This document shows positions 4,391 to 32,586 of a DNA stretch of 64,000 bases, one piece after another. Each line of letters opens with the position of its first letter. The first letter of the stretch is position 1. The notes under the pieces were generated by a model that was not told the origin of the DNA, did not search any database, and saw nothing but the letters and a program-made list of their open reading frames with translations. Both the position numbers and the translations under genes were made by a program. Source of the stretch: Ophiosphaerella korrae (Eukaryota; Ascomycota; Dothideomycetes; Pleosporales; Phaeosphaeriaceae); NCBI GenBank assembly GCA_028456385.1, contig JALNQF010000013.1, positions 62,001 to 126,000 of the forward strand, read 5' to 3'.

Positions 4391-5827
4391 ATGGTGGCAA
4401 CAAGAGATGGCACTGATCCTGGATCATACGCCTCATCGACGGAGATCAGAACTATGTTCTCCCAGGAAATGTCAAGGATGTACAAACTTGAAGTCCCGCT
4501 CTATGGCGACTTATTGGATCTGATTTCGGAAGTCAACCAGAACGTGTTGTCACGGGATCTGGCATTACGATCACAACTACAGGCACAGGGCCAAATAGAT
4601 CGTCTGAATCTGGAGAGACACGGAGCTATACGGCTGGGAAGCCGTGAGGAGCTTGCAATCATGGCAAGGTTTCTAAAAGTCATGGGCATGTGCCCGGTGG
4701 GATTCTACGATCTTACGAAAGCCGGTCTCCCTGTCCACGCCACCTGTTTCCGCACCCTGGACTCGGCTTCGCTCGCACAAAATCCTTTCCGCCTGTTCGT
4801 GTCGGTGCTGCAACTGCCATTGCTACCAGACGCTGTGCGTGAAACGACAAAAGAGGTGGTTGGGCGGCGGCAGATCTTTGATGACAGGGTGCTGCAGATG
4901 ATTCAACAAGCTGAAAAAGACGACTTGCGTCTGAAAAGGGATCAGGCAATGGATTTTGTGCAACTCGGCCTTGCCACCTTCCGATGGCACGCTCTGTCAA
5001 CCGTCTCACTCGAGGAATACAAGGACTTGGATGGGCAAAATCCGCTGCTGGCTGACATTGTGTGCTTTCGAGGGCCCCACATCAATCATCTTACTCCGAG
5101 AACACTTGACATTGATATGGTTCAGCAGTTGATGCAAACCCGTGGGTTTCCAACGAAAGCTGCCATTGAGGGCCCGCCACGTCGGCAATGTCCTATCCTG
5201 CTCCGACAAACGAGCTTCAAAGCTCTGAAGGAACAGATAAACTTCATTCAAAATGATGGAAGTCTGATTCGTGGAGCACACACGGCTCGGTTTGGCGAAG
5301 TGGAAGAACGTGGTGCTGCTCTGACGCCCAAAGGCAGACAATTGTACGATAAGATAGTACTCGAATGCAAGAGCAAAGGTCTCGACTCGTCAAACGAAAA
5401 TGCCTACAACGCGGTTTTTGCAGAATTCCCAGATGATTGGGAGTCGCTGCGTGTGCAAGGCCTGGCTTGGTTCCATTACAGCGTTATTGACCAAGCGGAT
5501 CTTTTGTCGCGTCCCAAGATCTCTCAAGACACGATAGACAAATTCGACCAATCGACTTCCTGGCTTTTGAAATCTGGCTGGATGAAGTTTGAACCAATTG
5601 TGTATGAAGATTTCCTCCCTCTCTCGGCAGCGGGAATTTTTGCAAGCAACTTGGGGTCATCAAAAGCTTCTGGTTCTGGAACATCCAGTGCTAACAAGGT
5701 GGACAATGGTTTCGAGGTCCTCCAAAATATGATCGGAGATCGCATCCGAGATGAAATGGCGAATTATGCTCAACTCCAGCAGGAAAGTCTGGATGCTTGC
5801 AAAGCTATTTTGACAAAACTGTTGTAA
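4391..5827 (+). CDS. 2-oxoadipate dioxygenase/decarboxylase (HglS, DUF1338 family)
   Basis: A single exon of 478 aa. The family converts 2-oxoadipate and O2 to D-2-hydroxyglutarate and CO2 using non-haem Fe(II). The diagnostic block CFRGPHINHLTPRTLD is at residues 225-240. The three metal ligands known from Pseudomonas HglS (His70, His226, Glu294) match His77, His233 and Glu303; the His-His spacing of 156 is identical. The C-terminal part after about 420 is Ser/Gly rich and then helical. It is transcribed divergently from the quinone-reductase relic and faces the 3' end of the 3-HAA dioxygenase gene. In this cluster it would consume the 2-oxoadipate made from 2-aminomuconate, giving an exit into the TCA cycle via 2-hydroxyglutarate (inference). 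Bacterial-like families of this kind in fungi often arrive by transfer; no base-composition break is obvious here. Confidence 0.93.
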   Translation: MVATRDGTDPGSYASSTEIRTMFSQEMSRMYKLEVPLYGDLLDLISEVNQNVLSRDLALRSQLQAQGQIDRLNLERHGAIRLGSREELAIMARFLKVMGMCPVGFYDLTKAGLPVHATCFRTLDSASLAQNPFRLFVSVLQLPLLPDAVRETTKEVVGRRQIFDDRVLQMIQQAEKDDLRLKRDQAMDFVQLGLATFRWHALSTVSLEEYKDLDGQNPLLADIVCFRGPHINHLTPRTLDIDMVQQLMQTRGFPTKAAIEGPPRRQCPILLRQTSFKALKEQINFIQNDGSLIRGAHTARFGEVEERGAALTPKGRQLYDKIVLECKSKGLDSSNENAYNAVFAEFPDDWESLRVQGLAWFHYSVIDQADLLSRPKISQDTIDKFDQSTSWLLKSGWMKFEPIVYEDFLPLSAAGIFASNLGSSKASGSGTSSANKVDNGFEVLQNMIGDRIRDEMANYAQLQQESLDACKAILTKLL

Positions 5828-6422
5828 GCAGGATAGAAAGCACCGATTGATGAACGCTAAATATACCGCGTTGTCAACTCGCTACATCTTTATATTGCGT
5901 TTCAAAATTGAAACATCTCACGGAAAGTAGTGCTTTACAACGACCTAGTATCCGGGGTCGTCTCATACAGATTCTCACAGGTAGAAGTATCACAGCCCAT
6001 GTTTCAGTGCGTAAAATAGTCGCTGCAGAGTCCCTTGCTATTGTGATCTACGTTCGTGGCCAATTATCTGCCAGTACAATGCGCCAATAAACAATGCTCA
6101 TCAAGATATCCCGAGACTGTGGATAAGGTTCTACAATTTCAGAAAATCCGATACCTGAATCCGCTTTACCAGTCCGAATGAACCTCAATCGTCAGATTCC
6201 GGCAAGAGATACCATCCATCTGAAAAGGCGGAAGATTGAAGCTAAAGATATTAAGTATCGCACATATCAATAGTATATCTAAACTTGTCCGCCACTGCAA
6301 TAAATTGGGGGATGGAAGTGACTTAAAGCTCCTGTGAAGGGCTGTCACACTTCTCCCCTATCGGCAGCGTTGGAAAGCCACAACGACGCACTCAGTGTTG
6401 CAAGCGGCGCTTAAAATGTTGC
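5828..6422. other. Tail-to-tail intergenic gap
   Basis: About 600 bp between the converging 3' ends of the HglS and dioxygenase genes. Only short open stretches without domain features; I see no gene or element. Confidence 0.6.
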
Positions 6423-7086
6423 TCAAGAAATCCATTGTGTGTCCTCTACCTCTCTACAATCGGGGCACATGCGGATCGATTCGTTCGTCTTCCAGTTGTT
6501 GATAGGAGCCACCAGTTGTTTTCCGAGATCAGTGCAATGGAAGGTATCTTCATGGATCTTAGTCAGCTTATTGTGGTGCCCCTTAGAGCAGTACCACTGC
6601 AGACGGTCGAGACTTCCCTCTGGCCGCTTTCTCTCCATCACGAGCCCATAAGTGTCGGCGTAACGGATGGGGCTGTGAGGTGTGTTCGCTACACATCATG
6701 TTAGCATCAGACTCCGATCTTGCCTTTAATCGACCTGCTGTAGGTGGATTTGCTTACCAGGTACAAGGAACATCTCACCCTCATTGATTGTCATCTCGCG
6801 GATCTGAGCGTTCTCCACAAGGCGAAGAAGCATAGCGCCTTTGAGCTGATAGAACCACTCTTCGGTCTCGTTCACTGTTTCATGTGAGTTCTCTAGTCTG
6901 GTGCGGTCCGATCTCGCACAGGTGCTGACCATGGAAATCATTTCGGGTGTTTGGACCTCCGACGACCATGAGGGTAAAGTCATCACCCGAATACAGACAA
7001 TAATTGCTGATAGGAGGCTGGAGCTTTTCGTGGTTATCCGACATCCATTTCGCCAGATTCAGCGGGACCTGTGGATAGGACGCCAT
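6423..7086 (-). CDS. 3-hydroxyanthranilate 3,4-dioxygenase
   Basis: Three exons, 7086-6930, 6874-6758 and 6688-6423 (540 nt, 179 aa), with GT-AG introns of 55 and 69 nt. It is a cytosolic cupin that opens the ring of 3-hydroxyanthranilate to 2-amino-3-carboxymuconic semialdehyde (ACMS). Iron ligands known in the family map to His52 and Glu58 (FHVNETEEWFYQLKG) and His96 (NTPHSPIRYAD). Arg48 and Arg100 fit the substrate-carboxylate arginines. The C-terminal Cys-rich part (WYC, FHC and CPDC) is present, so the whole family length is covered. The 5' end is head to head with the ACMS decarboxylase gene, the next enzyme in the pathway. That pairing argues for catabolic use rather than the NAD-synthesis copy most ascomycetes keep elsewhere. 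Confidence 0.94.
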
Positions 7087-7480: not shown

Positions 7481-8741
7481 ATGGATCCCGACCGTCCTTG
7501 GTGCGTAGGTGCCTCTGACACGCATCGAGCCTCAACCTTAGCACAAGGTGGTCAGGGTCTTTACCGCATCGACCTTCATACACACATTATGCCACGGCGC
7601 CTTCCAGTGCTAAGTGACACCGACAAAGACGCCAGCCAGGATGCGTGGATTGAGATGCGTCCGTCCAAGCACAACGCAGATAACGTCGATCTCTACATTG
7701 ACTCGAAATTTTTTAGAACTCTTGAGCCAAATTGTTTTGACGCCGACTTCAGGCTCAAAGACATGGACAATTCTGCTGTGGATGTTCAGATACTTAGCAC
7801 TGTCCCGATCCTCTTCTTCTACGACAGACCGGCAGCAGCCGTTGCCCAGCTAGCTAGTTTTCTCAACGACCATATCTCACAGCTTTGTACGCAGCATCCA
7901 ACACGCTTTGTGGGCCTCGCAACCGTGCCCCTACAAGACGTCCAGCTCTCCATCAAGGAACTGAAGAGGGCTAAGAATCATCTTGGCCTGAAGGGAGTTG
8001 AAGTTGGAACCACCATCGGCGATATGAACTTGAACGATCCAAAATTGGAGCCATTCTGGGCTGCTTGTGAGGAGCTGGACTTTCCGGTCTTCGTCCATCC
8101 CTTGGGATATTCCCTGTCAAAAGAGGCTCCATGGAGATGGGAGCAATATTGGTCATCGTGGCTCATTGGAATGTAAGTGATGCTGCATAACTTTGCGTTG
8201 TTACTCTGCTAGACATACTGACATGATTGACTGCAGGCCTTGCGAGACAGCGCTTTCTATCCATGGTGTATGTTCGTCAGGACTCTTTCTGAGATACCCT
8301 AGACTCCGTCTGTGCTTTGCTCATGCTGGTGGTGCTTTTCCAACTTTACTCGGAAGAATTGAACACGGTTATAACTGCCGGCCTGATTTGGTAGCGTTCC
8401 AGTCGGGTGGTCGTACGCCCTCAGAGCACTTAAAGTCTGGTAAGAACCTTTGGATAGACAGTCTGGTGCACGATCCGGACCTATTACAGTATCTTGGCAA
8501 GAAAATCGGTTGGGATCGTATTGTTATGGGAAGTGATTATCCATTCCCGCTGGGCGAAGTGCCTGAAGCTGGAAGGATGCTCTCATCAGACGACCGGTTG
8601 GCCAACTTCCTTAACTGGAAGGAAAGAGCACAAATGCTGGCCGGTAACGCCATAGAGTTTCTGTCGTTGGGCGATACTTTCAGGCAGCCATACAAGCAGA
8701 GATTGAGCTCATATTTGCATGAGAAGTCGCCTCAGCCGTGA
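7481..8741 (+). CDS. 2-amino-3-carboxymuconate-6-semialdehyde decarboxylase (ACMSD, amidohydrolase family)
   Basis: Two exons, 7481-8172 and 8237-8741 (398 aa), with a 64-nt GT-AG intron. TIM-barrel metal-dependent decarboxylase. Metal ligands visible are HTH (33 and 35), His206 (FVHPLG), His260 (FAHAGG) and Asp331 ([10 protein letters not shown]), the usual ACMSD set. It removes the carboxyl group from ACMS to give 2-aminomuconic semialdehyde, steering material away from quinolinate and NAD. It is head to head with the dioxygenase that makes its substrate. The first 25 residues before [10 protein letters not shown] are not conserved, so an internal start is possible but has no Met near it. 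Confidence 0.92.
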
Positions 8742-9642: not shown

Positions 9643-10769
9643 TCAAGCGCTCATGTCTTTGCTAGTGATCTCCGTGGACATCGACTGAATGCCTCTCTCC
9701 TCGTCAGGTCGAAGAACGACACGAAACCACTCTTTCAAAGCCCTGACGCGCTCCGCCTCACTCTTTGCTTCCACCAAGATCTCTTTCTTCCCAGTCCCTA
9801 TCCTCCTCTCAACCTTTGCCCCAGTGAGGATAATCGTTCCAATAGCCTTGGTCCTCGTCTCCTCGTCGATGAGCGTCCGCACTAGAACCAACTTGTAGGT
9901 AAACCAGCTCTTCGGGTCCTGGCGAGTACGGAAATTAATGATGTCGAAGTCTTGAGGCAGCCACTCAAGCTCAGCGAAGCAAAACGCTGCTGACCACGCA
10001 TTTGTGGTGGTATTCTTGAGCTCCAAAACCCAAAATTTGTGGTCCGTGGTGTTTGGTGCTATGGCTCGGTTGACGAGTCGCAGGAAAGAGCCGGGCACAG
10101 CTTCGTGTTCTTTTGAGGATGCTTCGGTCAGTGGCAGTGGCGATATCGGAGAACCTGAGCCAAAGCCAACGTCGACCTAAAAGGGGTGTCAGGATATTAT
10201 AAATACTTCCATGAGGGATATCACTTACAAGGTAATGCTGACCGTCGATGGTGACAATGATCACTTCGTGTTGCCTGTTCAACACACACCGTAAGCCTCG
10301 AGTCCTCGTAAGAAATGCCATTATCGAATGGCAGGACGAGCACCGGTATAACTTACCAGCCACCAAAGCCCTCAGGGCCAGCACGGCCCATCATCGAGTC
10401 ACTAACCCTCGCGCCCGTGACGTAAAGGTCGTATCCAAGGGACCTCAAAATCGTGGAGAAAAAAGCATTGTTCTCCATACAATACCCACCTAACCGTCGT
10501 TCGACAATCTTGTGATACAACGCCTCAGCATCGAGCGGCAGGGTTCGATGGTGCGAGTAATGTAGCGTGACATTGCCCCATATCGTAGCACAATTCTGTC
10601 GAAGTTGCAGTAACGTCAAGGCGCCCAAAGGATTTTGTTTGATCTCAGATTGAAGAGTGGACAGTGAATATGTTGGGTCTGGGTTGATGAATGAAACATA
10701 TTGAGCCAGCTGCGACTCGTTGTATATTGCGCGGTAGCCGCGTGGCGATCCATCTTCGCTTGATCCCAT
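9643..10769 (-). CDS. Arylamine N-acyltransferase (NAT; fungal NAT1/FDB2-like)
   Basis: Three exons, 10769-10357, 10274-10229 and 10176-9643 (993 nt, 330 aa), with GT-AG introns of 82 and 52 nt. The Cys-His-Asp triad is complete: Cys97 in RRLGGYCMENN, His140 in GWQHEVII and Asp155 in YLVDVGFGS. The family transfers an acyl group from acyl-CoA to an arylamine nitrogen. The best-known fungal member, Fusarium NAT1 at the FDB2 locus, malonylates 2-aminophenol from plant benzoxazolinones. In this cluster it could mask a toxic aminophenol or anthranilate, with the nearby amidase as the reverse step. Acyl donor and substrate cannot be read from the sequence. Confidence 0.92.
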
Positions 10770-11987: not shown

Positions 11988-13738
11988 ATGGATCCAGCGG
12001 TGCCCAGAAGGAACGCGATAGAGCAATTTTGGGCCCTAGACACACTGGAGTGTGCAACAGACTTTATCTCGAAGAATGCTGATCAAGGAGAGCTGCCTAC
12101 TTTGAAAAACTTTGTTGGGGATGGATTCAAAGACTCATCCTTAGGGCAAAGCACCTTACTCAGTTACAATCCGAAAACCGGGCGCGCATATGTGAGAATC
12201 CCGATCAGCGACGCACCTGACGTGGACGCTGCAGTCATCGCAGCCAAAGAAGCCTTTCCTGCGTGGGCGAGAACAAGCCGCAGAATCAGATCTGGCTATC
12301 TGCAGAAGATCGCTACTTTGTTAGAAGAGAACAAAGAACTATTTGCCGTATGGGAAAGTATTGATCAAGGAAAGACAATCCAGCGAGCGAGGATAGAGGT
12401 TGATCGGGCTGTCAGTAATTTCCAGTGTGTAAATCCTGTTTTCTTTTCCTACCGTACCCGCTTGGGAATCTTCGCACTGAGCCATGCAAATAGATACTTT
12501 TCGACATTTATTCTTCACGAAAACCATAGAGCTCGAATGGTCGACGATGTGGCTCTAACATACGAGCACCGCAGCGCTATCGGCCCTTTTGCACTGATCA
12601 GCCCATGGAATATGCCGCTATATCTTTTGACTTGGAAAATAGCGCCCTGTTTGGCATTTGGTTGCACAGCAGTTGCAAAACCAAGTGAGGTAACAAGCAT
12701 GACGGCATATTGTAAGACCCCCTGGAAATCCGTTCCTCCCTCTCCAACACTCTTCTGGACCACTGAACAACATTTTGTTTCAAACCTGTGTTGACTATTC
12801 ATTGGCGCAGTATTGTCAGAGATCTTTAGAAGGGTGAGGCTGCCTGCCGGAGTGGTGAACATGGTCTTTGGAGATGGCGCAACCACTGGGGCCGCTCTGG
12901 TCTCCCATCCCGGTATTCACGGTATCTCATTTACGGGAGGAACAGCTACGGGAATCCAGATCCGTAGACTCACTGCCGCCCAGATCTACAAACACCTGTC
13001 TCTCGAGCTAGGCGGGAAGAATCCAACCTTGGTGTTTGACGACGTTGATATGGACGAAGCAGTGGCATTAGCTTCGCAAGCGGCCTTCGAGAATCAAGGA
13101 GAGGTGAGTAGCCTTCAATCGTTCTGTTCGATGGACAGGTTGGATTGACGCTGCTAAAGATTTGCCTTTGTGGCTCGCGAATCTACATTCAGTCGTGCAT
13201 CTTCGATGAATTCGTGGCGAAATTCAAGACTCATGCCAGCCAGACATACAAGATCAAAAGCACAGTAGGTGCAGTTGTCTCACTGGCGCACTACAGTAAG
13301 ATCCGAAGCTACTTGAAGATTGCAGAAGCAGAAGGCGCCAACTTCGAGCTAGGTCAAGTGCCTCCATCCGAGCCTAGAGCGGGTTATTGGATAGACCCAG
13401 TGGTGCTCTCCGGCGTGAAGCAAGGCAGCAGAGTCGTCCAAGAAGAAATCTTCGGGCCTGTCGCGACTCTTATCCCCTTTGATACAGAAGATCATGCAGT
13501 TCAGCTAGCCAATGACAACGCCAATGGTTTAGCCAGCGTTATCCTGACTAAGGATGGAAAGCGCATGCGTCGAGTTGGAGAACAAATGGAGGCAGGACTG
13601 GTATGGGTGAATTGCTGGCTTGTACGTGAGCTAGGAGTGCCCTTTGGCGGTATGAAAAACTCGGGAGTCGGTCGAGAGGGTGGTGAATACAGTCGGGAAG
13701 TTTTCACTAATGTACGGACGTTGCATCTCGCGCAATAA
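11988..13738 (+). CDS. 2-aminomuconic semialdehyde dehydrogenase (ALDH8A1-like)
   Basis: Four exons, 11988-12424, 12494-12711, 12811-13103 and 13160-13738 (1527 nt, 508 aa), with GT-AG introns of 69, 99 and 56 nt. The first ATG is at 11988; an upstream GTG in frame is ignored. It is an NAD-dependent aldehyde dehydrogenase: SPWNMPLYL holds the oxyanion Asn, AKPSEVT the cofactor-binding Lys, LELGGKNP the general-base Glu and NQGEICLCGSR the catalytic Cys (about 318). NQGEICLC is typical of the ALDH8/AMSDH branch. It oxidises 2-aminomuconic semialdehyde to 2-aminomuconate, the step after ACMSD. Head to head with NAT. Confidence 0.93.
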
Positions 13739-13953: not shown

Positions 13954-15240
13954 CTAAGGCTCTTTAAAACTAGTCGAATCGACATCATTCTCACTCATTT
14001 CACCTGCCTTCCTCTTCCCTGTGACTTCATTAAGCCCTGTTATAAATACAATCTCAATATCACTATCGACAAAACTGAGAATTTGTGACCTCATCCAAGA
14101 CTTTAAACACTCAATCGCCTTAAATGACTTGATACCAGTACGATTTCGATGGTCAGTAATTGTGATCTTACAGCTTGAAAAGAGACGCTCAACTTCAGCA
14201 GACATTGCTGGGATTGAGAGAAAATCCAGGGCCATCTTCGAAAGGTTTGGATATGCTTGTGGTTGAGTAGCTTCAAGCCACCAAGCCCGTGGATCAAACT
14301 TTTTGCCGCATCGCGAGTAAGGGCAATCAGTGGTGATCTGAGATACTACTCATATTCATCTTCAAGTGCTGGAGTATTGAGTGTTTTTTGTTAACAAACC
14401 GCGAACAGACTTGGCCGTTTTGTTGTCGAAGTTGAAGTTGATAGTGGCTCCGGAGTTTGATCTGACTCAGGTGAAGTTATAGGCTTGTAGTCCTGCTCCC
14501 AGAGATCCTTGACATTCCTTTTCGCTTTCCGTATCTAAGCTGGCTGCCACTCAACCTTTTCAAAGAACTTCCATTTCCGATTTAGACAAAAGACAACTGC
14601 AGCACAATATGCAATTGAATTGTCAGTCCTGCGATATCACTTGTCAAGCTTCTCCCACCTCGCCTTAGTACAAGGGCCTATCAATCTCATATCTTCAGTG
14701 TACGTATTATTCCCTCTCTCCAATACACCAAGAAGAAACTCGATGGTTGGAAGAACCTTATCAACAGTGGCAAAATGGCCTTGCGTTGACATCGCCGTAT
14801 GGGAATATGCTTCCAGGAATTCCATCAGCTTCTCTAGGTCTTTCCACTCCTCCTCAGTAAGTTGATCATCCTCTAATTGACTTCTTTCAAGCATATTAAA
14901 GGTATCAACAGCGTCACGGACTTCAAATGCGCGACTCAACATCTTGAAACATGAATTCCACCGGGTATCGTTGTCGCGTAAGAGCATGAGACCTTTGAGA
15001 GCTGTTTGAACCTTTCAATTCGGTAGTTCGAACCGGCAATATACACCGATATGTTGTGGATTTTGCCCAGTGGACCACGTTTGCACCATTCCGCCACCTC
15101 CCTTTGATTGAACTCTCGTGGAGGAAGCTTGCCCTTGATGTCTCGTAAGATACTCTCATCGGTGGTAGAGTCGTCGCTATTGTCTTTGTCTCCGTCCGCA
15201 AGCGTCGGGAACAGGAACGATTGCGTTGAAAGATTAATAA
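13954..15240 (-). pseudogene. hAT transposase relic (central and C-terminal parts)
   Basis: Minus-strand pieces in several frames: the hAT dimerisation block FLSIPAMSAEVERLFSS near 14200, the central LLRDNDTRWNSCFKMLSRAF near 14980, and upstream of it RGPLGKIHNISVYIAG in another frame near 15060. Frameshifts and stops separate them. It lies in the tail-to-tail gap between dehydrogenase and amidase, so it breaks no cluster gene. Confidence 0.8.
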
Positions 15241-15389
15241 CATGACCGTTACACCGAAGTCGCCGGAATACTGGATCCTAGGTCATATCCCTATTCTTCT
15301 TCAACCCCAGATTAAAGTCAGTATTGTCTAAAAGTCCATAAGCTTTACTCACATCTTGATAAATTCCGACATATTGTGTCGTTTTTTGA

Positions 15390-15928
15390 TTGGTTATCGC
15401 CAACAAAGAATCCAAGTTGATTCTTAATTCCAAATTCCACAAGAACCAAATTGTAGCGTCTCTTTCCGCATGGCAACGCTACCAGAATTTAGAGCACGAC
15501 TCTACTACCTTAATCCAGAGATCGATAACTAGCTACCAAACTCTATTCCAACAATACGAACTTGGACCTTGCGGGCTTTCGAGGCTCAGAGACATCTAAT
15601 TAAACGCGAAGTTCAACTATCTCTTTCAAGAATCCACTTTACCGTTGATCTCTGGACCTCTCCCAACGCTCTTACGATTCTTGGCATAATTGCACACTAT
15701 ACGTCGGAGTCTGGCCAACTAGAACACGCCGTTCTTGCTTTACGAGAACTGGACGGCAAGCACTTAGGTCAGAATATTGCAAGTTCAATGATGCAGATTA
15801 TCAATGACTATGGAGTTGCCTCGAAAGTGGGTTATTTTATGATGGACAATGCAGACAACAATGATACAATGATGGAAGCGCTTTCTGACTGTAAGTATGA
15901 AAAGTTGATAGGTTATAAAACCGGCTGA
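15390..15928 (+). pseudogene. hAT transposase relic (N-terminal part, opposite strand)
   Basis: The plus strand encodes RIHFTVDLWTSPNALTILG and VGYFMMDNADNNDTMM, the start of a hAT RNase-H-like core, with an upstream piece in a shifted frame (15420-15560). Orientation is opposite to 13954-15240, so two different copies, or one rearranged copy, lie tail to tail. Confidence 0.75.
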
Positions 15929-17009: not shown

Positions 17010-19003
17010 TCAAGCCAACAAGGTGTTCGCAATGACCTCTGTCGCCATCAGTGTTTGCTCGTCCTGAAATCGCCAACCAACAACCTGAACACTGCCTGGT
17101 GCCCCATCAACAATTTCTGCATCATCTGAGATCTGTCAGTATTGAAATAGACAAGCTGGTAGTGATTTCCCGGTGAAGACCTCACCGTCGATAGCTTGAA
17201 TGGGGTGGAACTTACATCCGTCTTTCGAGTCGATGGACTTATCAGCCTTCAGGAAGGGAATGACGCTAGATGGAAACTAGAAATGTTAACGTGGACCTGG
17301 AGAAACCTGCAGGGGTTCAACAAGTCAGTCTTACATCAAGCAAGTTCCAAATCATGGTGTACAAGGGTGGACCGTATTGGGTATGAGGAACGGCTGTCGC
17401 TCGAGCTCCTGGGCAAAGTAGAACATCAAGGCCATGTGCGCGCCACACCTTTGCCCATTCTTCTCGATAGTCTTCCAAGGCAGCATTCACTCCCCAGACT
17501 TCGGAGAGATCAGCCTTATGATCAAGTCCTAGATATTCGTGCGAATTAGACGCCAATACCTCCGCAATTGGCTCTTCGCCAGCAGCGGCCAGCAGTTTCG
17601 GGACAACATGTTCAATATCCAGCGAGAATGATCGGGAGACGAGTTTCATTGCGGCGACTACCGAAGGAGCAGATTCCAGCACTTCCACCGTGTGGCCTGC
17701 GGCTTCAAGCTTTTCTCGTGCTGAATTCAATATTCTGGCTACTGTCGGAAACACCGGAAACTCGGGGTCGTTCAACCAGACGCCAATGGTTAACTTTTTC
17801 TTTTTAGGTACATCATGCCACGGAATGGCGAGCGCTGTCGAATCTCGGAGCCACGGCTTTGATTGGAGCACGGTCTGCGTAAAGAGAGTAAGATCACGCG
17901 CTGATTGTGTCAGTGGACCCAGTGTCGGAAGGATTGACGGCCATCCCTTGGAGATCAACTTCTGCTGTTTCGCCCATGGAATGCGGTTGGCGGTAGGCTT
18001 GAACCCGAATGTGCCGTTACAGAGTGCTGGGATCCGGATCGAACCACCCATGTCAGTCCCAACCCCCATGATAGATCCGCGGAGGGCGATCAATGCACCC
18101 TCGCCAGAGCTACTCCCACCAGGAGTGAGAGATAGCTTGTGTGGGTTCATGGTCCGGCCAAACACGTTATTATAGCCTTCAGCAACCTAAAGAGGATGTC
18201 AATCGTCAATACTGGCAGAACTTTCTGGCTGTGTGGATGTTCTTACCAAGAGAGTTTGCGGCACGTTGGTTTTGCAGTAGAATACCGCTCCGGCGTCGGA
18301 TAGAACGTCTACTATGACGGAATTTTCGTCCGCTACAGGACTTTTGAGATGGGAGACGAACCCCATGGTCGCAGACTCGCCTTTCACATGTATCATGTCC
18401 TGAAGATAAGGATAATTTTTAGCACTTCCGTCTGCTGAAATGAGCCATGCTGAAGGGGCTCACTCTTCTCCAAGCCGGAGGAAACGCACCTTGAGACTGA
18501 TGGGCAGGCCGTGCAGAGGACCAAGAGGTCTACCTTCCTTGGCCAAGTAGTCATCCAAAAAGCGTGCTCTGTCCAGTCCCTTCTCAAAAAATATTTCCGT
18601 CAATGAGTTTGTCTGAGGCAGAGATAGCAACTGGTCAGCGTTCTCTTACGTGAACACATTGGAGGTAGCCTTATCATTCAAAACCGGCACCTTGGAGCTT
18701 CCATTAACATACCAGCTGATGAGCTATCGCCGCACGCTTGCAAAACGCCAGAGTCACATCATAAGAAGAAATTTTTTTGGCTGCCAACAACTCGACGAGG
18801 CTAGTAGCATCGTATTTCTCTGTGATGTCAATCTCCCTTGATGTCAAGATTGCTGACTCTTGGAGCAGCTCAAATGCACTGGCTGAGCTTTCTGGCGAGA
18901 CCTTCCTCAAGGTAGCTTCCGGAAGACGCCAATCCTTGGGAATAAGTCTTAGTCGGTCAGCTCTCTTCTTTTCGATCAATTCTTGCCACTCTGTAGACAC
19001 CAT
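17010..19003 (-). CDS. Amidase (amidase-signature family, fungal acetamidase type)
   Basis: Six exons, 19003-18713, 18612-18490, 18399-18247, 18186-17335, 17276-17216 and 17125-17010 (1596 nt, 531 aa), with GT-AG introns of 100, 90, 60, 58 and 90 nt. The Ser-cisSer-Lys triad is visible: Lys138 (PISLKD), Ser214/215 (TPGGSSSGEG) and nucleophile Ser238 (GTDMGGSIR). C-terminal WNLLDFPS and GAPGSVQVVGWRF complete the fold at a normal length. It hydrolyses carboxamides. In this cluster likely substrates are N-acyl or amide-linked anthranilate or aminophenol derivatives, releasing the free arylamine (inference). Head to head with the PPC-domain gene across the 60-bp repeat array. Confidence 0.93.
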
Positions 19004-20093: not shown

Positions 20094-20630
20094 ATGTCAT
20101 TACAAGCGGAGGGAAAAGCAACCCAGGAGGCGCCGCAGCCCGCCATCATCGGGAGCCCGACCGAGTTTCGCATCCTCCGGCTCGGCACTGGCGAGGATTT
20201 CAGATCGCGACTGCTTGAGGAATTTAAAGCAAGCGGAGCGGCTGGTGGCTCAGTGGTGTCCGTTGTTGGTAGCTTCAAAGAACTTGTCATTGGCGAGGGA
20301 TTCTACCACCCCAACGGTGACCTCGACATGCGCCAAGTAACCCGCAATGTCGGCCCATATGAGACCGGCTCGATGAGCGGTCATCTCGGCTACACAGAAG
20401 AGGGTGAGGCGACCGCCCACGTACACGCCACTTTCGCGACGTCAGATGGAAGCTTATTCGGCGGCCATCTATTCGGGGGCACGATCCTGCTCACACTCGA
20501 GCTGACCATCGCACTGCACTCCTCCGCGGGATGGTCCATGCGGGAGCATGACCCCGAACCCCATGTCCCGATGTCGATAGTCCGCCGGGCGTTCCTCCCC
20601 CAACCCGCTCAAAGCGAGAAGAACGCATGA
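20094..20630 (+). CDS. PPC (DUF296) domain protein
   Basis: A single exon of 178 aa from the ATG at 20094; the open frame extends further 5' without an ATG. The PPC/DUF296 domain covers about residues 24-155: FRILRLGTGEDF, GSVVSVVGSFKEL, then HVHATFATSDG and GGHLFGGTILLTLEL. The HVH ... GGHL histidines match the trimeric metal-site pattern of prokaryotic PPC proteins. The family is best known from bacteria and from plant AT-hook proteins; no AT-hook is present here. Function is unknown. Placement head to head with the amidase suggests a role in the pathway (binding or converting an intermediate) rather than DNA binding. Transfer from bacteria is possible but untested. Confidence 0.85.
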   Translation: MSLQAEGKATQEAPQPAIIGSPTEFRILRLGTGEDFRSRLLEEFKASGAAGGSVVSVVGSFKELVIGEGFYHPNGDLDMRQVTRNVGPYETGSMSGHLGYTEEGEATAHVHATFATSDGSLFGGHLFGGTILLTLELTIALHSSAGWSMREHDPEPHVPMSIVRRAFLPQPAQSEKNA

Positions 20631-21540: not shown

Positions 21541-23397
21541 TCACATCATGTATCGGAAGGCAGAGTTTTCACCGTCGGTTCGGTCTGTGTTGGAAACCTC
21601 TTCCTCCAATACGCTGAGAATGGATTGATCAACCACTCCAAATAATTTGTCCCGACGACTGTTCTCATACCGGATATTTAAGAACAAAACCACCATGAGA
21701 ACGATACCGATACCAAAGCAGGCAGCTGATCCTGTAAAACCACTCTGTGGAGGCCTATCAGTTCACGTACCGAATTTAGACTGGCAGATACATACCGGGT
21801 ATTTCGGCTTCTCACGTGGAAAGAACAGGAATGGTCCGATGATGTTCCCTACACAGTAGCCAAGGGTGACTATTGACGCGGCGACACTCTTCTTAGTGAA
21901 GCCTGCAACGTTGGAAGCTATCATAGAGTATGCAATGGAAATCGTGGCAGGGAAAGCAAAGATGGTCAAAAACCCGAAGATTTTGACGCCGGGGTTTGGG
22001 CCGAATCGGACTAGAATAGAGCCCATAAGACTATACACCAGGTCAGCCAGAGTATATCTTAACCGTGTTCATGAACTAACCTCAGCGAACACAGGAGGAT
22101 ACTCGCAATACAGCGAACGTTTCGGTAGCGCGAGCAGATGTAGGTTGAGCTAATGCCAAATGTGGCGTGGACAGCACCAACGGCGATGAGAAAGAGATTT
22201 GCCTGGTATACATTAAAGCCTAGGCCGACAAGGACGATCTGGGAGAACTATATCTGTGTCAGTGAGGGCCACCGCTAGTTTCGTGAGTTAGAGAATCTCA
22301 CCGCGTTGATGGAGCTGCTGCAGACAGACATGCAAAGAAGATAGAAGCAAAGCAGCCAAATTCGAAGATCGAGCAGCGCCTCCCGAAATTGATCCCACTG
22401 GAAACGATTGGTTTTGACAACCATCTGATTACTCCGCAGTCGTTCTACCGCTCGGACTTGTTGATCTTTGGACAGAAATTTTGCAGTTCCAGGGTGGTCA
22501 GGAAGTTGCCAGAACATCAAGGCCGCCCATATAAAGGTAATAATACCCATAGCAATAAATAACCACTGTCGGATCATTAGAAAATCGAGATCAGCGAGTC
22601 TCGAACTAGCGGGACGTACCTTCCAAGCGCCAACGCCAGATTTAATATGAGCCACCCCAAAGGATAACAAGCCAGCGAGCATGATTCCTAGTGAGTGTCC
22701 CAGAAACCAGAAGCCATGTCTTAAGGCATGTTCCTGTCGTTTGTAGAACATGCCGATCATGAGGCTGGACCCCGGGATAGCTGCGGCTTCTGCCGCCCCC
22801 AGCAAGGCTCGAGCCGCCATAAGACCGCCAAAACTTTTGAGTGCTGCGTGAGCTCCAATGATAACTGCCCAGCACAAGCTATTGTTATTAGTCTCTCAAA
22901 ATTACTTTCTGCCCAAAGTGCCTGACTCACAAGGTGCAACAGAGGACTTTGCCAACAGGCCAGCGTACCATTAGATATGGCGTAGCGTACGTCAAAGCCA
23001 AGTACCCGAAGTAGAAGATCGAGCTCGCCCATGAATACTGAGCACCCGACAAATGCTGCAGACCGGATGAGCATTTCCAGGCTCAGCGCAACGATGGGGA
23101 AAGGATTACCAGCTCCTGTATGAGCCCTAGGATAGAGGCGGCAGGAAGTGCTTGCTTGTCCATATATTGTAGCGTCATCGAAAGCGCCACCATGGGACAG
23201 AGCCTGTGTGTTCGCGGTGAGAACCATTATAGAGACCAGCGGTCACGGAGTGTCAATGCTTACCACATGTCGATGCGTCTAACAAGTGCCCTATCCTCGG
23301 CCGTCGATAAGGTTGCGGTCTCCATGTCTATTGCCACATGAGTCTTTTCACCGTCATCAGCGGTAACTGGCTGTTCAACGGGCATTGCGTTATTCAT
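21541..23397 (-). CDS. MFS transporter, anion:cation symporter (Dal5/Tna1-like) family
   Basis: Eight exons, 23397-23264, 23203-23110, 23055-22931, 22878-22620, 22565-22302, 22247-22081, 22030-21796 and 21744-21541 (1482 nt, 493 aa). The seven introns of 50-60 nt are GT-AG. The frame shows an acidic cytosolic N-tail, YMDKQALPAASILGL in TM1 and after it, YSWASSIFYFGYLA in TM2, the GFWFLGHSLGIMLAG segment, the central loop DHPGTAKFLSKDQQ, and a second six-helix half ending in an acidic tail. The family imports organic anions such as allantoate and nicotinate, so uptake of an aromatic acid or amide feeding this pathway is likely (inference). Plasma membrane. Confidence 0.92.
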
Positions 23398-24911: not shown

Positions 24912-25525
24912 GGCATATTGTCATGGTTCGATATGCAGGAATGTTGCCAGAAAGACTGTGGGTCCTTAGTCGGTGTCAATAGGACAAGAGCCCGGTGGTA
25001 AGCGCAGTGGATGGATTCGACCGAGCCTGATTGATATCCACAATGTGCGGTTATGATTAAGTACGAAGTTGATTACGTATGAGAGATATGAAGCCAGTCT
25101 ACTCTGTGTATACGTATAACAGAGAATTGTTCCTAAACTGGGTTCAATGATTGGGCATCACCCGACCCATCAAGCTTTTGGGTAGGGTGAGAGCACCCAC
25201 AGAATTCAACCCCAACCCGAGATGCATGGCGATATGCAGGACCAGCGGCACCTCAACCTAATACCTACTATCTTGGCTTGCACCACCTATGTATAATATT
25301 GTTAAACACGTCAAGCGCCAAATATCCATTGGAAGGAGATATGTTTAGGGGATAGTTACACAAAAAGCCCTTCGCAGATATGTACCCATAATATAGCGTC
25401 GGAAGTACAAGAAATGCTCGAAAGACTGGAACGTCGTGACTTAAATCCGCTTCCGGGAACACCTTGCATCCATACATACCCACCAGCCATGCGCCTCGCT
25501 ATTCTCTTCGAGCGCTAGAGGCGAT
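24912..25525. other. Tail-to-tail intergenic gap
   Basis: About 600 bp, no supported gene. Confidence 0.55.
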
Positions 25526-27246
25526 CTAAGATTGGGTGATTTTAATGGAACCTTTGAACCGTCGCTTTGGGTCGTACTTGAGTCTCAATTTCAGTAGGTC
25601 CTTATAGTTGTCGCCATAGATCTTCATTGGAGACGTTAGTCAGGCACGCGTGAGCTGTGACCAGGTTGGACCTTACCTTCGAAAGGTCGGACCATTCTTC
25701 AATGGCATTGGGAGTTGGGGTGATGCGGGGATCGTCGCCCATCAAGTAAGACGGTGCGCTCTGCGCCAGTTCTTGAGCCCTCTGGATTACTTCATCAGCG
25801 GCATTCAAATCACAGCCAAGACCGATTACGAGCATGTGTTTACACCCGCGAGGTCCTGGCCAGGATAGCTGTGCCGGGGTAGGCGAATCTTTCTGTTGTG
25901 GTGAGGCACACAGATTAGTTCCAGCAGACCTTCTCGGCTTGTCTGTAGGTTACTCACCGTGCAAAAGAGCTCGTAGATCATATAGGTATTCTGGGCGATA
26001 GAATTACCGTGTGCCCCGAGATCTTTAAACCACTGTGCAGAGTGCTGTATTTGAGAGACGCTAAATTCGGGTACAATAATAGTTGCCCAGTTTTGCCTCG
26101 ACGTGCCGATCAGGTCGGATACACGATCTTAATATCACATCATTAGCTCTTTCATCCAAGTAAATAGGGCGTTCAAAAGTGGATTGATGACCGACCTTGT
26201 ATCTTGATAACATCCAGCATACTACCTTCTCTGGTGAAATCCTTCGCTCCTGGTAATTCAAGTGCCCACGAAAAGGCTTGGCGGCCATGAGTCTCTCCAT
26301 TAAGATCAAACAGCTGGAACACGAGGACGTCCCCGTCACCCTTGGACTCGTTAGATTCGTCGTGCATTGCTCTAAACTTCTCTCTCTCAATGAACATGAA
26401 TGCGGAGACACCGGGATCCACAGTAGTAGAGGTAGAGAATTCCGATATGCGGTGTGTGACCTCGGTCAATGCCGACATAGGGGCAATAACAGTCCCATAG
26501 TAGATTGATCGAGAAATCGGGTGTAACTGGAAGATGATCTTGGTGATAGCTAACAAATGTGGCGAGTCAGTTCGCCTGCCGGTAGGGAAAGGTGTCAAGT
26601 CTCACCGCCGTAGCCACCACCACCACCTCGAATCGCCCAGAGCAATGCGGGTTCGGTCGATGCCCAAACGACTCTGCCGTCATATTTGACAACCTCACAA
26701 TCAATCATGTTCTGAGGATCTGAAATGCAGCCAAATTTCCCCGAGAGCCACGAGAAGCCTGCGGTTACGACAGTGCCACCGACACTCACCGATGGTGTCC
26801 GAGCTCCAACGACTTCGTAGAAAGAACGTTAGGGTTAGATTTGCTAACTTTCGAGACAAGGCCAACCCGGGCCACTCACCTGTGTAATTGGGCGCGAGTC
26901 TTTCCAATGCCTCGTATACAGTCATCCAGGACTGTCCAGCGCCTACGGTAATGGTCTGCTTATCAGGATCATAGGTGAATTCATCGAGATTGTGCAGGCT
27001 GACAAGCACATCCTTAGTTGGTAGCGAGCTGTAGCCACGGCCGCGAAACGCAAAGTCAAGCTCAGTATGACCATACAGATATTGGATTGTCTTGGCGAGC
27101 GTCTTAACATCTGGAGGGGAGACTATAGCCTTGGGGGAGAGGTTGAGTTGTGCCGCCCAGAATGATGTCAAGACTTTGTAGGCGGCTGGATCCGACTCCT
27201 GCGTCACAATGGCGGGGGCCGGAAGCAATGAGTAAAGACCTTCCAT
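25526..27246 (-). CDS. FAD-linked oxidoreductase, berberine-bridge-enzyme (BBE)-like
   Basis: Six exons, 27246-26880, 26812-26606, 26549-26196, 26127-25958, 25892-25677 and 25621-25526 (1410 nt, 469 aa), with GT-AG introns of 67, 56, 68, 65 and 55 nt. An N-terminal FAD-binding PCMH domain (IVSPPDVKTLAKTIQY, TVGAGQSW, SVGGTVVTAGFSWLSGKFG, AIRGGGGGYG) is followed by a substrate domain and the C-terminal BBE tail (YGDNYKDLLKLRLKYDPKRR). In the usual RGGGHS loop the FAD-linking His is replaced (FRGRGYSSLP), so FAD is probably not bound through that His. No clear signal peptide, unlike secreted BBE oxidases. A cytosolic oxidation in the pathway is likely; the substrate is unknown. Confidence 0.9.
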
Positions 27247-28057: not shown

Positions 28058-29134
28058 ATGGTTTCGACTCACGCTAGTGGATATTCACAGCGGCGTCAAG
28101 ACAGAACGGAAATCTCTGGGGAGGTGCTCAAGTTCGGCAACAACTGGACGCTGGGCGTGAACAACCACTTCCAGGAAATGATAGAACCGTTACAGGCAGA
28201 AAATAATGCCAAATTAAGTACAACGGTCAAACTCGAGAAAAGTCTCAAGTACGGTGATGATGAGCGGCATAGAATAGACCTATATTCGTCGGTCAGTTGG
28301 GCGAATCACAATCGTGGCCTTGCATACTTGTTCTCATCGGACTAATGTTCCTCACAGACTACTCCATCCACAGAGGCGGATCAATTACCGGTAGTTGTAT
28401 ACATTCATGGAGGTGGTTTTGTATCGGGAGATACAGATATTACACCATCGATGCATGGAAACATTGGTTAGTGCAAGTTGAGGCACTGTTCGTGGGATCA
28501 TTTGAAATAACCCTCTCTAGGATACTATTTCGCTTCTCATGGCTGCCTTGGCGTCCTTGTTACTTACCGCCTCGTTCCCAAGGCTTCGTTCCCCCAGGGT
28601 GCTGAAGATGTCGTCGGTATTATAGCATGGCTGGTGCAGAACGCCCACAGATGGGGCGGAGACCCTTCCCGTATTCATCTGGTCGGCCAGAGTGCCGGGG
28701 GGGCCCACTTGGCGACTGCCCTTTTCACCGGACTTCTCAACGACTGGAAGAAATATATTGGCGGTATCATCCTGCAAAGCGTGCCGTTGTGGTACAATTT
28801 GACCCTTGAAGCGCGACGACAGATTATGGAACAATATCATCGAACGGATCGACACGAAGAGATCAAATCAAAAACAGGCGTGAGCTTGTTCGAGAACATT
28901 ACGAAGGAGGAAGTAGAGGATTGGCCACCCGTATTGCTGATGTTAGCAGAGTTTGATCCCGATGAGATAGTGGATGGGAATCTTCGATTCGTGGAAGCCT
29001 TCAGGGAAAAAACGCAGCGGCTTCCGCTCCTTGAGGTGATGAAGGGACATAACCACGTCAGTTACTCTCTAGGGATCGGGTTACCAGAAAATACCATAGG
29101 GGCGAGGCTATTAGCATTCGTTTTTGATAAATGA
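28058..29134 (+). CDS. Alpha/beta hydrolase (HGGG type, arylformamidase/esterase-like)
   Basis: Three exons, 28058-28291, 28358-28466 and 28521-29134 (957 nt, 318 aa), with GT-AG introns of 66 and 54 nt. Oxyanion-hole HGGGFVSGD, nucleophile elbow GQSAGG, a likely acid in LAEFDPDEI and the His in KGHNHVS make a complete Ser hydrolase of the alpha/beta-hydrolase-3 type. Length and motif spacing resemble kynurenine formamidases and small carboxylesterases. In this setting it could remove an N-formyl or ester group ahead of the amidohydrolytic steps (inference). Head to head with the BBE-like oxidase gene. Confidence 0.88.
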
Positions 29135-30369: not shown

Positions 30370-30541
30370 AGACTGTATGAGATCCAAATCTACCATTTGG
30401 TCTATGCGCCAGGACTCTACAAGTAAAATCCATCGGCGACGCACTAAGGGACCACTTTGAGAATATCGTCATGGCCTATTTAGATGATATCACTATATTC
30501 TCGAAGTCTTTCCAAGGACATGTAGAGCTTCCAACACAAAT
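30370..30541 (+). mobile_element. Ty3/gypsy reverse transcriptase fragment
   Basis: The plus strand encodes DHFENIVMAYLDDITIFSK around 30450-30520, with the YLDD catalytic box of Ty3-type reverse transcriptases. A shifted, weaker YE...APG piece lies just upstream. The fragment abuts the 3' end of the SDR gene. No LTRs seen nearby. Confidence 0.7.
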
Positions 30542-31285
30542 CTACCAGGGGATATTACCGGACCGGTCCGTAAATGTGGCAGTGGCACTTCCCTTTTTCA
30601 TTGTCGCAAGCTGAACAATTCTCCTCGCGCCTTCCTCCGGGGGGCTTCCGCGCGAGCGATTATATGTGGTGGCATTTGTTTGTACAAGACCTGGGCAGAC
30701 CACATTGACTAGAGAAGGCGTGTCCTCAAGTAAGCGGTAGTAATTTAAGGCCAGCATATTCAGGGCTGCTTTGCTGGAACAATATGCCGGCCAATCAGAG
30801 CAATATGGAGTTTTAGTCTTGTCGGATGCTAGTTGAAGTGAACCTAGGGTGGATGATACGAAGATAAGGCGTGGCAGTTGACTCTTCGAGAGTAAAGGAA
30901 GACAGGAGTCTGTCAAACATGCAGTGCCGATGACATTGGTAGAAAACGTGTTGCTGAATATCTCGCGCGTGCTAAGACGACCCTTGTGGTCGAGATCCAT
31001 GTGAATCCCGGCGTTATTGATCAGAACATCAAGTCGGCCGTAAGTCTTGGAGATGTGCTCTACGGCAGCGGCGATGGATTCGTCAGACTCAATGTCGAGC
31101 TGGACGCTGCTGGCAGAGTGGCCTTCAGAGGATATTTCTGAGGCGGCCCTTTCGCCATTGGTCGGGTTGCGTGACCCGATGATGACATGATACTTGTACT
31201 CAGCAAGTTGTTTTGCGACGGCCAACCCAATGCCTTGGTTAGCGCCTGAGACGAGGACGATGGTGGAATCCGGAGCGGCGGCCAT
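30542..31285 (-). CDS. Short-chain dehydrogenase/reductase
   Basis: A single exon of 247 aa. Cofactor loop SGANQGIGLAVAKQL (TGxxxGxG type), NNAG, the Ser of FVSST and YCSSK of the catalytic Tyr-Lys pair define a classical SDR, closest in style to small carbonyl reductases (SGNIPW tail). The Arg after the second strand (IIGSRN) favours NADP(H). Substrate unknown. It might reduce the keto or ene-dioate intermediate between 2-aminomuconate and 2-oxoadipate, or a carbonyl produced by the BBE-like enzyme (inference). Head to head with the RidA gene. Confidence 0.9.
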   Translation of the reverse strand: MAAAPDSTIVLVSGANQGIGLAVAKQLAEYKYHVIIGSRNPTNGERAASEISSEGHSASSVQLDIESDESIAAAVEHISKTYGRLDVLINNAGIHMDLDHKGRLSTREIFSNTFSTNVIGTACLTDSCLPLLSKSQLPRLIFVSSTLGSLQLASDKTKTPYCSDWPAYCSSKAALNMLALNYYRLLEDTPSLVNVVCPGLVQTNATTYNRSRGSPPEEGARRIVQLATMKKGSATATFTDRSGNIPW

Positions 31286-32127
31286 ATTCGAGTTTCCAAC
31301 TCAATATGACAAGAGTATGCTGTCGTTGGTTTTGCAAATTGGCAGATGGCAGATGGAAGATGAGCACTATGTAGACCTTCGATGCGTGGTGGGGGAGGCA
31401 TGAACTACATCATATTTATGAACTTGCAGCTATGAGGATGTGTGTTGGGCGCCCTACCTGTTTAAGGGCTACCGGCCCTAGAATGCAGTTCCGGAGCAGA
31501 TCGTCGGAGCTACGTTACCCGACATCACGCGCCATTCAATCTCGGCACTCAAAGACACCGAGTCACAGGTTCAAACGAGGCTCGGTCCGGATCCGCTGGC
31601 CCTCCAGATAAAGAATGACGGGCATTCAAACGGATGTGGAATTCAACGCGCTTGTAAATGTGGGCGAGAACACTCCGCGTCCAAGAATATGAATCCGCTT
31701 TCGCCTCCAGGATTAACGGTAGATTACATTTTTCTCGATGGACATTTCTGATTGCTGAGACAATTGTGCAAATATTTGCATGCTAATAATACTGCTGGGG
31801 AGGATCGAAAACGAGGCGAGTTCTGTCGTCTGATGCCATGATCGTGTCAAGATTCCGGATCGGCATTCACAAGAGGGAGACACAGGCACAGAGGGCAGGG
31901 GATTAGGAATGTATCTCGGAAAGTCTGGGAGCCAGTTCCGAAAATCTCGATCGAGCGGACCGGTATCCGATTTAGCCCACGACCCGCAGCTTCATGGGCC
32001 ACAACGAATGAGCTTTCATACTACACTGTTCGGTAGTGTTGCTGGGGTTAAAGCATCTTGTACGCGCTTCCTCTTGCATCTAGATTGTTGGTAGAACTTT
32101 TGTTCCATACACGAAAAATTAGCTACA
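31286..32127. promoter_or_regulatory. Divergent promoter, SDR / RidA
   Basis: An 842-bp head-to-head spacer with CGG/CCG sites at 31490-31515 (TTCCGGAGCAG..GTCGGAG), 31582-31600 (CTCGGTCCGGATCCGCTGG) and 31955-31972 (GCGGACCGGTATCCGAT). The last, read in reverse, is ATCGGATACCGGTCCGC, like the site at 27786. Confidence 0.5.
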
Positions 32128-32586
32128 ATGTCATCACTTAACGGAGTGGCGTATTTCCTGCCGCCTACCGCCGCCCAAGGGCTAGCCAATTACCCTCATG
32201 CGCGCGCCACACCGGAGAACAAAACCATTACAACACTTTACATCTCTGGAACATCTTCACGACGAGGAGACGGCACGTACGCTGGATATGCAGAGGGGAC
32301 CGATGGCGTCCCTGTACTGGACGTTGCCGATCAAACAGACGCCGTTCTAACAAACATCGGAACAGTCATCAAAACAGCGACCCAGGGCAAATGTGGACTC
32401 GAGAGTGTCATCGAGGCGACAATCTTCTTAACTGATATGAACGACTATGCACGAATGAATGAGGTCTGGAACAAGTTCTTCCCCGATCGAAAATGTGCTC
32501 CAGCAAGGACTTGCGTGCAAGTGGCATGCCTTCCCAGCCCGAAATTGTGTATCGAAATCAAATCCATAGCACTGATTCCCACCTAG
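32128..32586 (+). CDS. RidA/YjgF family protein, probable 2-aminomuconate deaminase
   Basis: A single exon of 152 aa. The N-terminal ANYPHARATPENKTITTLYISGTSS, followed by SRRGDGT, is the form seen in bacterial 2-aminomuconate deaminases (AmnD/NbaF), which belong to this family. EATIFLTDMNDYARMN and the PART loop (Arg binding the substrate carboxylate) are intact. It would hydrolyse the enamine of 2-aminomuconate to an oxo-hexenedioate and ammonia, the step after the semialdehyde dehydrogenase. That RidA, rather than a general imine deaminase copy, sits in this cluster supports the assignment. Confidence 0.9.
   Translation: MSSLNGVAYFLPPTAAQGLANYPHARATPENKTITTLYISGTSSRRGDGTYAGYAEGTDGVPVLDVADQTDAVLTNIGTVIKTATQGKCGLESVIEATIFLTDMNDYARMNEVWNKFFPDRKCAPARTCVQVACLPSPKLCIEIKSIALIPT

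Follow-up and report, generated by a model that had tools for sequence, protein, structure and literature searches.

A probable gene cluster for 3-hydroxyanthranilate catabolism with an adjoining HglS gene in the ascomycete Ophiosphaerella korrae

A catabolic gene cluster encoding 3-hydroxyanthranilate 3,4-dioxygenase (3HAO), 2-amino-3-carboxymuconate-6-semialdehyde (ACMS) decarboxylase (ACMSD) and 2-aminomuconate-6-semialdehyde dehydrogenase (AMSDH) has been described in several Ascomycota, with some Aspergillus, Fusarium, Metarhizium and Penicillium species as hosts (Martins et al. 2021, PMC7842363; this and the other papers are cited for the portions of their text drawn on here). A putative deaminase of the RidA type recurs in that cluster and is absent in A. 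terreus, where the cluster was upregulated on salicylate. The deaminase product was given as 2-hydroxymuconate/2-oxo-3-hexenedioate, and its fate was left open between reduction to 2-oxoadipate and decarboxylation plus hydration; the glutaryl-CoA step was unverifiable from the authors' RNA-seq data (PMC7842363). In a review, 2-aminomuconate proceeds to glutaryl-CoA by an enzyme that is unnamed in the part cited (PMC13151070). Here a stretch of 64,000 nucleotides from Ophiosphaerella korrae (assembly GCA_028456385.1, contig JALNQF010000013.1, positions 62,001 to 126,000 of the forward strand), hereafter called the window, was analyzed. It contains the four enzymes of the published core and, next to 3HAO, a gene for HglS, a 2-oxoadipate dioxygenase/decarboxylase of the DUF1338 family.

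In Pseudomonas putida, HglS is an enzyme of D-lysine catabolism, and among seven saturated 2-oxoacids the Pseudomonas enzyme was active only on 2-oxoadipate (PMC7286885). For fungal DUF1338 proteins with the substrate-binding arginine, the same paper suggested activity on 2-oxoadipate and raised the question whether they take part in the breakdown of lysine. The text of PMC7842363 makes no mention of DUF1338. No paper joining HglS or DUF1338 with fungal 3-hydroxyanthranilate (3-HAA) catabolism was found in the one open-licence library searched. In bacterial degraders of 2-nitrobenzoate, the nba route through 3-HAA continues via 4-oxalocrotonate decarboxylase, a hydratase and an aldolase.

Core Enzymes of the Cluster

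Genes for HglS, 3HAO, ACMSD, an ALDH8-like AMSDH and a RidA protein resembling aminomuconate deaminase all lie within 28 kb and are open (Table 1). They probably form the core of a catabolic cluster of this filamentous ascomycete for 3-HAA and compounds yielding 3-HAA; every reaction, the co-regulation of the genes and the natural substrate are what we infer from the sequence. Gene models were obtained by six-frame reading, a home-made gene finder trained on the window and hand-checked splice sites. The models for HglS, 3HAO, ACMSD, the arylamine N-acyltransferase homologue (NAT), AMSDH, the amidase, the PCC protein, the short-chain dehydrogenase/reductase (SDR) and RidA have a start, a stop and an open frame; re-checked models were free of internal stops, and the introns of the spliced ones were 52-100 bases long with GT-AG borders. 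Those for the P450, the MFS transporter, the FAD-linked oxidase and the alpha/beta hydrolase are tentative. The HglS gene ends 595 bases from 3HAO, and 3HAO and ACMSD are divergent with 394 bases between them.

HglS passed the NCBIfam equivalog NF049974 (565.6 bits; cut-off, 550). Its best match in the PDB was the hydroxyglutarate synthase 6w1g (E=6.1e-130), aligned over nearly the whole length, and H77, R81, H233, E303 and S412 of the window protein align with H70, R74, H226, E294 and S403 of that structure. The residues H70, H226 and E294, which we take to be the metal triad, fit this alignment. The HHE triad and Arg74 are conserved in 121 of 121 aligned rows, i.e. the window protein and the 120 matches listed. 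The numbering of R74, V402 and S403 and the binding of 2-oxoadipate by R74 follow PMC7286885.

The other core enzymes were identified in the same way. 3HAO passed TIGR03037 (180.8; cut-off, 146), missed NF009763 (198.8; cut-off, 220) and matched 1zvf best in the PDB (E=1.6e-48). For ACMSD, which had no NCBIfam match, the nearest PDB entries are ACMSDs, with 2wm1 as the best (E=3.4e-79); the HxH, H, H and D residues, to which we assign catalytic roles by assumption, are conserved in the alignment with 2wm1. The best solved relatives of the aldehyde dehydrogenase are 2-aminomuconate-6-semialdehyde dehydrogenases (4i1w, E=4e-98), and the residues aligned with R120, N169, E268, C302 and R464 of 4i1w, presumably the functional ones, are conserved; no cut-off was passed among the best 25 of 41 NCBIfam families. 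RidA passed none of three NCBIfam cut-offs, and its best PDB match was the 2-aminomuconate deaminase 6izh (3.9e-18), the next structure following at 2.1e-13. An earlier note made from the letters of this DNA had named the same five enzymes and placed them on one route. Sequence comparison gives good support both to these assignments and to the single route, with the NCBIfam results for the aldehyde dehydrogenase, RidA and ACMSD speaking against firm names for these three.

Table 1. Features modelled in and around the cluster (window coordinates; aa, amino acids)
Feature	Position	Strand	Model	Basis and remarks
Cytochrome P450	1397..3150	-	N-terminal exons tentative, by reading only; start near 3150	Pfam p450 E=8.7e-57 on modelled 1397-2778
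ADH_N-only fragment of zinc-alcohol-dehydrogenase/quinone-reductase	3444..3929	-		Pfam ADH_N 5.3e-10 on 3447-3929; no second domain
HglS, 2-oxoadipate dioxygenase/decarboxylase (DUF1338)	4391..5827	+	Single exon, 478 aa	Pfam HGLS 7e-142
3HAO, 3-hydroxyanthranilate 3,4-dioxygenase	6423..7086	-	3 exons, 179 aa	Pfam 3-HAO 1.1e-54
ACMSD, ACMS decarboxylase	7481..8741	+	2 exons, 398 aa	Pfam Amidohydro_2 2e-40
NAT, arylamine N-acyltransferase homologue	9643..10769	-	3 exons, 330 aa	Pfam Acetyltransf_2 4.3e-34
AMSDH, ALDH8-like 2-aminomuconate-6-semialdehyde dehydrogenase	11988..13738	+	4 exons, 508 aa	Pfam Aldedh 2.5e-144
hAT transposon remnants between AMSDH and amidase	13957..15925			Dimer_Tnp_hAT 3.8e-18 at 13957-14349 (-)
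Amidase-signature hydrolase	17010..19003	-	6 exons, 531 aa	Pfam Amidase 2.4e-93; nearest PDB 6kvr, fatty acid amide hydrolase
PCC (DUF296) domain protein	20094..20630	+	178 aa	Pfam PCC 2.4e-15 on 19983-20627
MFS transporter	21541..23397	-	Several exons; N-terminal exons tentative (frame reading)	Pfam MFS_1 6.3e-23 on partial model
BBE-like FAD-linked oxidase	25602..27246	-	C-terminal model tentative	Pfam FAD_binding_4 1e-13
Alpha/beta hydrolase (esterase-like)	28058..29134	+	Start and first exons tentative	Pfam Abhydrolase_3 6.7e-17 on 28511-29131
SDR	30542..31285	-	247 aa	Pfam adh_short 1.2e-39; candidate for 2-oxo-3-hexenedioate reduction
RidA family, 2-aminomuconate-deaminase type (AMDA)	32128..32586	+	152 aa	Pfam Ribonuc_L-PSP 1.5e-23
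hAT transposon fragment	32757..33143	+		Dimer_Tnp_hAT 2.3e-10

Predicted Pathway and Its Gap

In the proposed route, 3HAO would open the ring of 3-HAA to give ACMS, and ACMSD would remove a carboxylate so that ACMS does not cyclise to quinolinate. Next, the ALDH8-like enzyme would yield 2-aminomuconate, which RidA would deaminate to 2-hydroxymuconate/2-oxo-3-hexenedioate. A reductase, for which the SDR of the cluster is the best candidate, would convert 2-oxo-3-hexenedioate to 2-oxoadipate, and HglS would turn 2-oxoadipate and O2 into 2-hydroxyglutarate. The presence of HglS predicts the conversion of 2-oxoadipate to 2-hydroxyglutarate as the exit of the pathway; 2-hydroxyglutarate could then be oxidized to 2-oxoglutarate by dehydrogenases encoded outside the cluster. 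Among the accessory proteins, the amidase, the hydrolase, the P450 and the FAD-linked oxidase may free an aryl amine from a conjugate or hydroxylate it, NAT may mask surplus amine, the MFS protein may carry the substrate and an adjoining Zn2Cys6 gene may provide regulation.

The earlier note had spoken of complete catabolism. This is too strong because HglS can act only after 2-oxo-3-hexenedioate has been reduced to 2-oxoadipate, a step to which no gene of the locus could be assigned. Among the genes modelled in the cluster, no reductase-type gene other than the SDR is intact; the SDR fell below every cut-off among its best 25 of 210 NCBIfam rows, and its sequence gives no pointer to this reduction. 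We know of no gene assigned to a reductase forming 2-oxoadipate in animals either. A fragment with an ADH_N domain only (3444-3929) could be the remains of a reductase that the cluster has lost.

Comparison with the Published Fungal Cluster and Other Systems

With the cluster of Martins et al., as far as the cited portions of the paper go, the locus has in common 3HAO, ACMSD, AMSDH and the RidA-type putative aminomuconate deaminase, each of which was found here (PMC7842363). An SDR is also among the syntenic genes of the aspergilli in that paper, and one is present here. The locus differs from the published one in that HglS adjoins 3HAO, that RidA lies ~18 kb from AMSDH, and that NAT, amidase, PCC, FAD oxidase, P450 and hydrolase genes are interspersed. 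The novelty that the earlier note saw in the combination stands only in part: the four-gene core was already published in 2021, and HglS and the accessory genes are additions to it. What is new is HglS beside 3HAO.

The window HglS shares family, metal triad and 2-oxoadipate-binding arginine with the P. putida enzyme (PMC7286885); it differs in genomic setting, and the fungal side of the family has Leu for Val402 in 22 of 24 rows. The 3HAO, ACMSD, AMSDH and RidA-type deaminase steps are shared with the bacterial nba route. In contrast to that route, no family of 4-oxalocrotonate decarboxylase, hydratase or aldolase was present among the cluster models scanned with Pfam.

Copies of the Core Genes in the Assembly

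Six-frame searches for the cluster genes were performed exon by exon on the assembly (63.0 Mb in 974 contigs, its completeness not being established). HglS gave a single match in the whole assembly. ACMSD matched four other places, partially and at 28-36% identity, and RidA had one other match, which was weak and partial (34%). For the aldehyde dehydrogenase, identity was 24-36% in the other matches of at least 300 residues and reached 42% in shorter pieces. A second 3HAO, 52% identical, lies on contig C812 (L004:1501-2007). Both CXXC pairs are intact in this copy; the cluster copy (6423-6688) is without part of one. It is possible that the two copies divide NAD synthesis and catabolism between them. 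NAT has three relatives elsewhere in the assembly, and the amidase has many.

The assembly has kynureninase at two sites, and four of its contigs carry FAD-oxidase_C proteins. The FAD-oxidase_C family includes 2-hydroxyglutarate dehydrogenases, and one of these proteins had a weak match to GlcD models. Because both kinds of protein are present, supply of 3-HAA from tryptophan and oxidation of 2-hydroxyglutarate are possible in principle.

Linkage of HglS and ACMSD in Other Organisms

Relatives of HglS and ACMSD were collected as the best 120 matches each, those of HglS being mostly bacterial. The closest HglS among the matches listed is from Fusarium avenaceum (95%), followed by two unnamed ones (60-62%) and Leptodontidium (55%). 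A quickly built tree of these matches together with the window protein separated 24 rows from 97 across the midpoint root, which was set for drawing only, and had several rows on long branches. The smaller side contains the window protein, all eight named fungal matches, no named bacterial match and 15 rows without organism name, which are called fungal on the basis of the tree. This side has several near-fixed changes, including the Leu at position 402. The closest ACMSD proteins among the matches listed are fungal and many are named ACMSD: F. avenaceum, 84% (with models spliced differently); Exophiala oligosperma, 75%; other Fusarium, 66-70% with 89-96% of the query covered; and F. verticillioides, 76% with 67% covered.

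Linkage among the eight named fungal HglS matches was judged by locus tags and contigs of equal size. In Pestalotiopsis fici, HglS (PFICI_02119) and ACMSD (PFICI_02126) are seven tags apart and both on contigs of 6,593,212 bases; in Pleurostoma richardsiae, both are on contigs of 452,132 bases. The two genes thus appear linked in two of the eight, from which no rate can be derived. For Neoarthrinium, Seiridium and Coleophoma the listed ACMSD is from another strain or species, and for Scytalidium only from Xylogone, presumably its relative; Leptodontidium has no ACMSD among the matches listed. In F. avenaceum, where the contigs of the two genes differ in length, the signs are rather contrary to linkage.

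Bacterial loci were surveyed with tblastn (E 1e-5) for 80 of 203 ACMSD loci, mostly from Bacteroidota and similar, with flanks of up to 10 kb and some contigs shorter. 3HAO was present in 19 of the 80, the aldehyde dehydrogenase in 4, RidA in 2 and PCC and HglS in none. Linkage of HglS as a trait common to bacteria was rejected on this result.

Accessory Genes and Surroundings

The accessory genes listed in the earlier note, namely NAT, amidase, hydrolase, FAD-linked oxidase, P450, SDR and MFS transporter, were recovered with Pfam, in scans of the modelled genes, between which the largest gap is 2.2 kb (23398-25601). Its description of the transporter as carboxylate-type found no support, Pfam giving MFS_1 only; the piece 22760-23242 alone had no Pfam match. 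Of the BBE-like oxidase, the FAD_binding_4 domain was confirmed, and no berberine-like C-terminal domain was matched by Pfam. An apparent frame change near the 3' end of this gene (25602-27246) could be decay, sequencing error or a wrong model. Two pieces of the hAT region, 14640-15014 and 15533-15925, had no transposase family match and were assigned by reading only. An Rfam search of the window gave no match at the gathering score.

The Zn2Cys6 regulator, the PCC gene, the hAT remnants and the ADH_N fragment had gone unmentioned in the earlier note. The regulator gene lies at 58,437-61,288 of the same contig (C35), 0.7-3.6 kb before window position 1, and carries both expected domains, Zn2Cys6 and Fungal_trans (Pfam). 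The PCC protein had nine relatives in a protein search, with F. avenaceum at 90%, seven at 70-77% (one from Trichoderma velutinum) and one at 35%. As a core member of the pathway it was rejected, since it has only these nine relatives and its F. avenaceum tag is far from that of HglS.

The cluster stretch (contig 56-96 kb) is GC-normal, with a GC content of 0.488, a TpA/ApT ratio of 0.75 and a (CpA+TpG)/(ApC+GpT) ratio of 1.22. It is flanked by AT-rich blocks at contig 34-56 kb (0.253, 1.80 and 0.06, respectively) and window 34.0-38.2 kb (0.305, 1.91 and 0.25), both of which bear marks of repeat-induced point mutation (RIP). Twenty further stretches, 17 of them beyond 38 kb, were scanned with Pfam and contained nothing for the 3-HAA pathway; the matches were Tc5 transposase HTH, Nuc_deoxyri_tr2, Sir2, F-box, 2EXR, DUF7492 and ferritin-like, with APH, PRANC, RING and DUF7730 below the cut-off.

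Comparison with the FDB1 and FDB2 Loci

The best PDB match of the cluster NAT was 7qi3 (E=7.5e-43), which we take to be NAT1 of F. verticillioides. A NAT on contig C878 scored higher against this structure than the cluster NAT (178.5 vs 149.8 bits). In six-frame searches of the genome, limited to the best candidates and made exon by exon, the metallo-beta-lactamase family PF00753 had nine matches and the dienelactone hydrolase family PF01738 seven, none of them on contig C35. On these results FDB2, the nearest relative according to the earlier note, was rejected as such. Amidase, MFS transporter, hydrolase and Zn2Cys6 regulator are in common with the FDB1 gene table (Glenn et al. 2016, PMC4726666), and a NAT is in common with FDB2 (NAT1, PMC11213898). 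In the main text of the FDB paper, the terms 3-hydroxyanthranilate, decarboxylase, cupin, amidohydrolase, endoribonuclease and aldehyde dehydrogenase do not occur (PMC4726666). An FDB2-like locus might be present on contig C190 (~76.6-91.9 kb), where a NAT relative, its six-frame match interrupted by stops, and a dienelactone-hydrolase fragment are ~14 kb apart.

Alternative Explanations

Three other explanations of the locus were considered. The core could be the published 3-HAA cluster and HglS an independent neighbor, acting for example on lysine-derived 2-oxoadipate, with exit via glutaryl-CoA or 4-hydroxy-2-oxopentanoate. Both other exits are named as possible by Martins et al. in the portions cited (PMC7842363), P. 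putida HglS works in D-lysine catabolism (PMC7286885), and neither the bacterial ACMSD loci nor F. avenaceum show the two genes together. However, the short distance to 3HAO, the sole match in the assembly and the apparent ACMSD linkage in two other ascomycetes speak against this, and the cluster models scanned with Pfam contained neither an FAA-hydrolase nor an AMP-binding (CoA-ligase) family; an independent HglS seems rather unlikely. That the catalytic genes are open and the island is no longer a working pathway, i.e. a decaying or silenced cluster, is suggested by the RIP-type AT-rich flanks, the internal hAT remnants, the ADH_N-only fragment and the apparent frame change of the FAD oxidase. 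Against this, the five core genes are open with conserved catalytic residues, HglS shares 95% identity with the F. avenaceum protein and the regulator retains both domains; we consider loss of function quite improbable. Resistance to xenobiotics as in FDB1/FDB2, where an aromatic amine would be N-acylated and not used as food, would account for the amidase, MFS transporter, hydrolase and Zn2Cys6 gene, which recur in the cited FDB1 table, for the NAT, which FDB2 also has, and for its closeness to 7qi3. Pure masking needs no ring opening or later steps, though, and with the better fit of the C878 NAT and neither of the two hydrolase families on the contig this explanation is very unlikely.

The reading as a 3-HAA catabolic cluster is itself burdened by several observations. 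The step from 2-oxo-3-hexenedioate to 2-oxoadipate has no assigned enzyme and is the one clear gap of the route, and RidA stands at the far end of the cluster, ~18 kb from AMSDH. The hAT remnants, the truncated dehydrogenase and the apparently frame-broken oxidase suggest partial decay. In F. avenaceum, HglS, ACMSD and PCC are on differing contigs (515,513, 2,333,811 and 4,265,027 bases), of which the first two may belong to different assemblies, and the tags of HglS and PCC are far apart (HG530_015115 and HG530_015870). The lack of HglS in all 80 bacterial loci is a further point of this kind.

Within the catabolic reading, the aminomuconate branch might be finished without glutaryl-CoA. The SDR or another member would reduce 2-aminomuconate or 2-oxo-3-hexenedioate to 2-oxoadipate, or HglS would turn 2-oxo-3-hexenedioate into 2-oxoglutarate via the enol 2-hydroxyglutaconate with no reduction. 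We hold this proposal as a whole to be unlikely. Action of HglS directly on the unsaturated acid is chemically conceivable, and the only hint to it in the data is the changes of the fungal-side HglS including Val402Leu, which may equally be a mark of ancestry. The specificity reported for Pseudomonas HglS in the cited portions of PMC7286885 argues somewhat against a loose specificity.

Significance

If HglS did act on 2-oxo-3-hexenedioate, its family would gain a new reaction. The position of HglS beside the core, in this fungus and apparently in two further ascomycetes, points to a concrete exit for the intermediate left open in the published cluster. It also places an enzyme known from the catabolism of lysine in a second setting and supplies a small set of candidate reductases for the aminomuconate branch.

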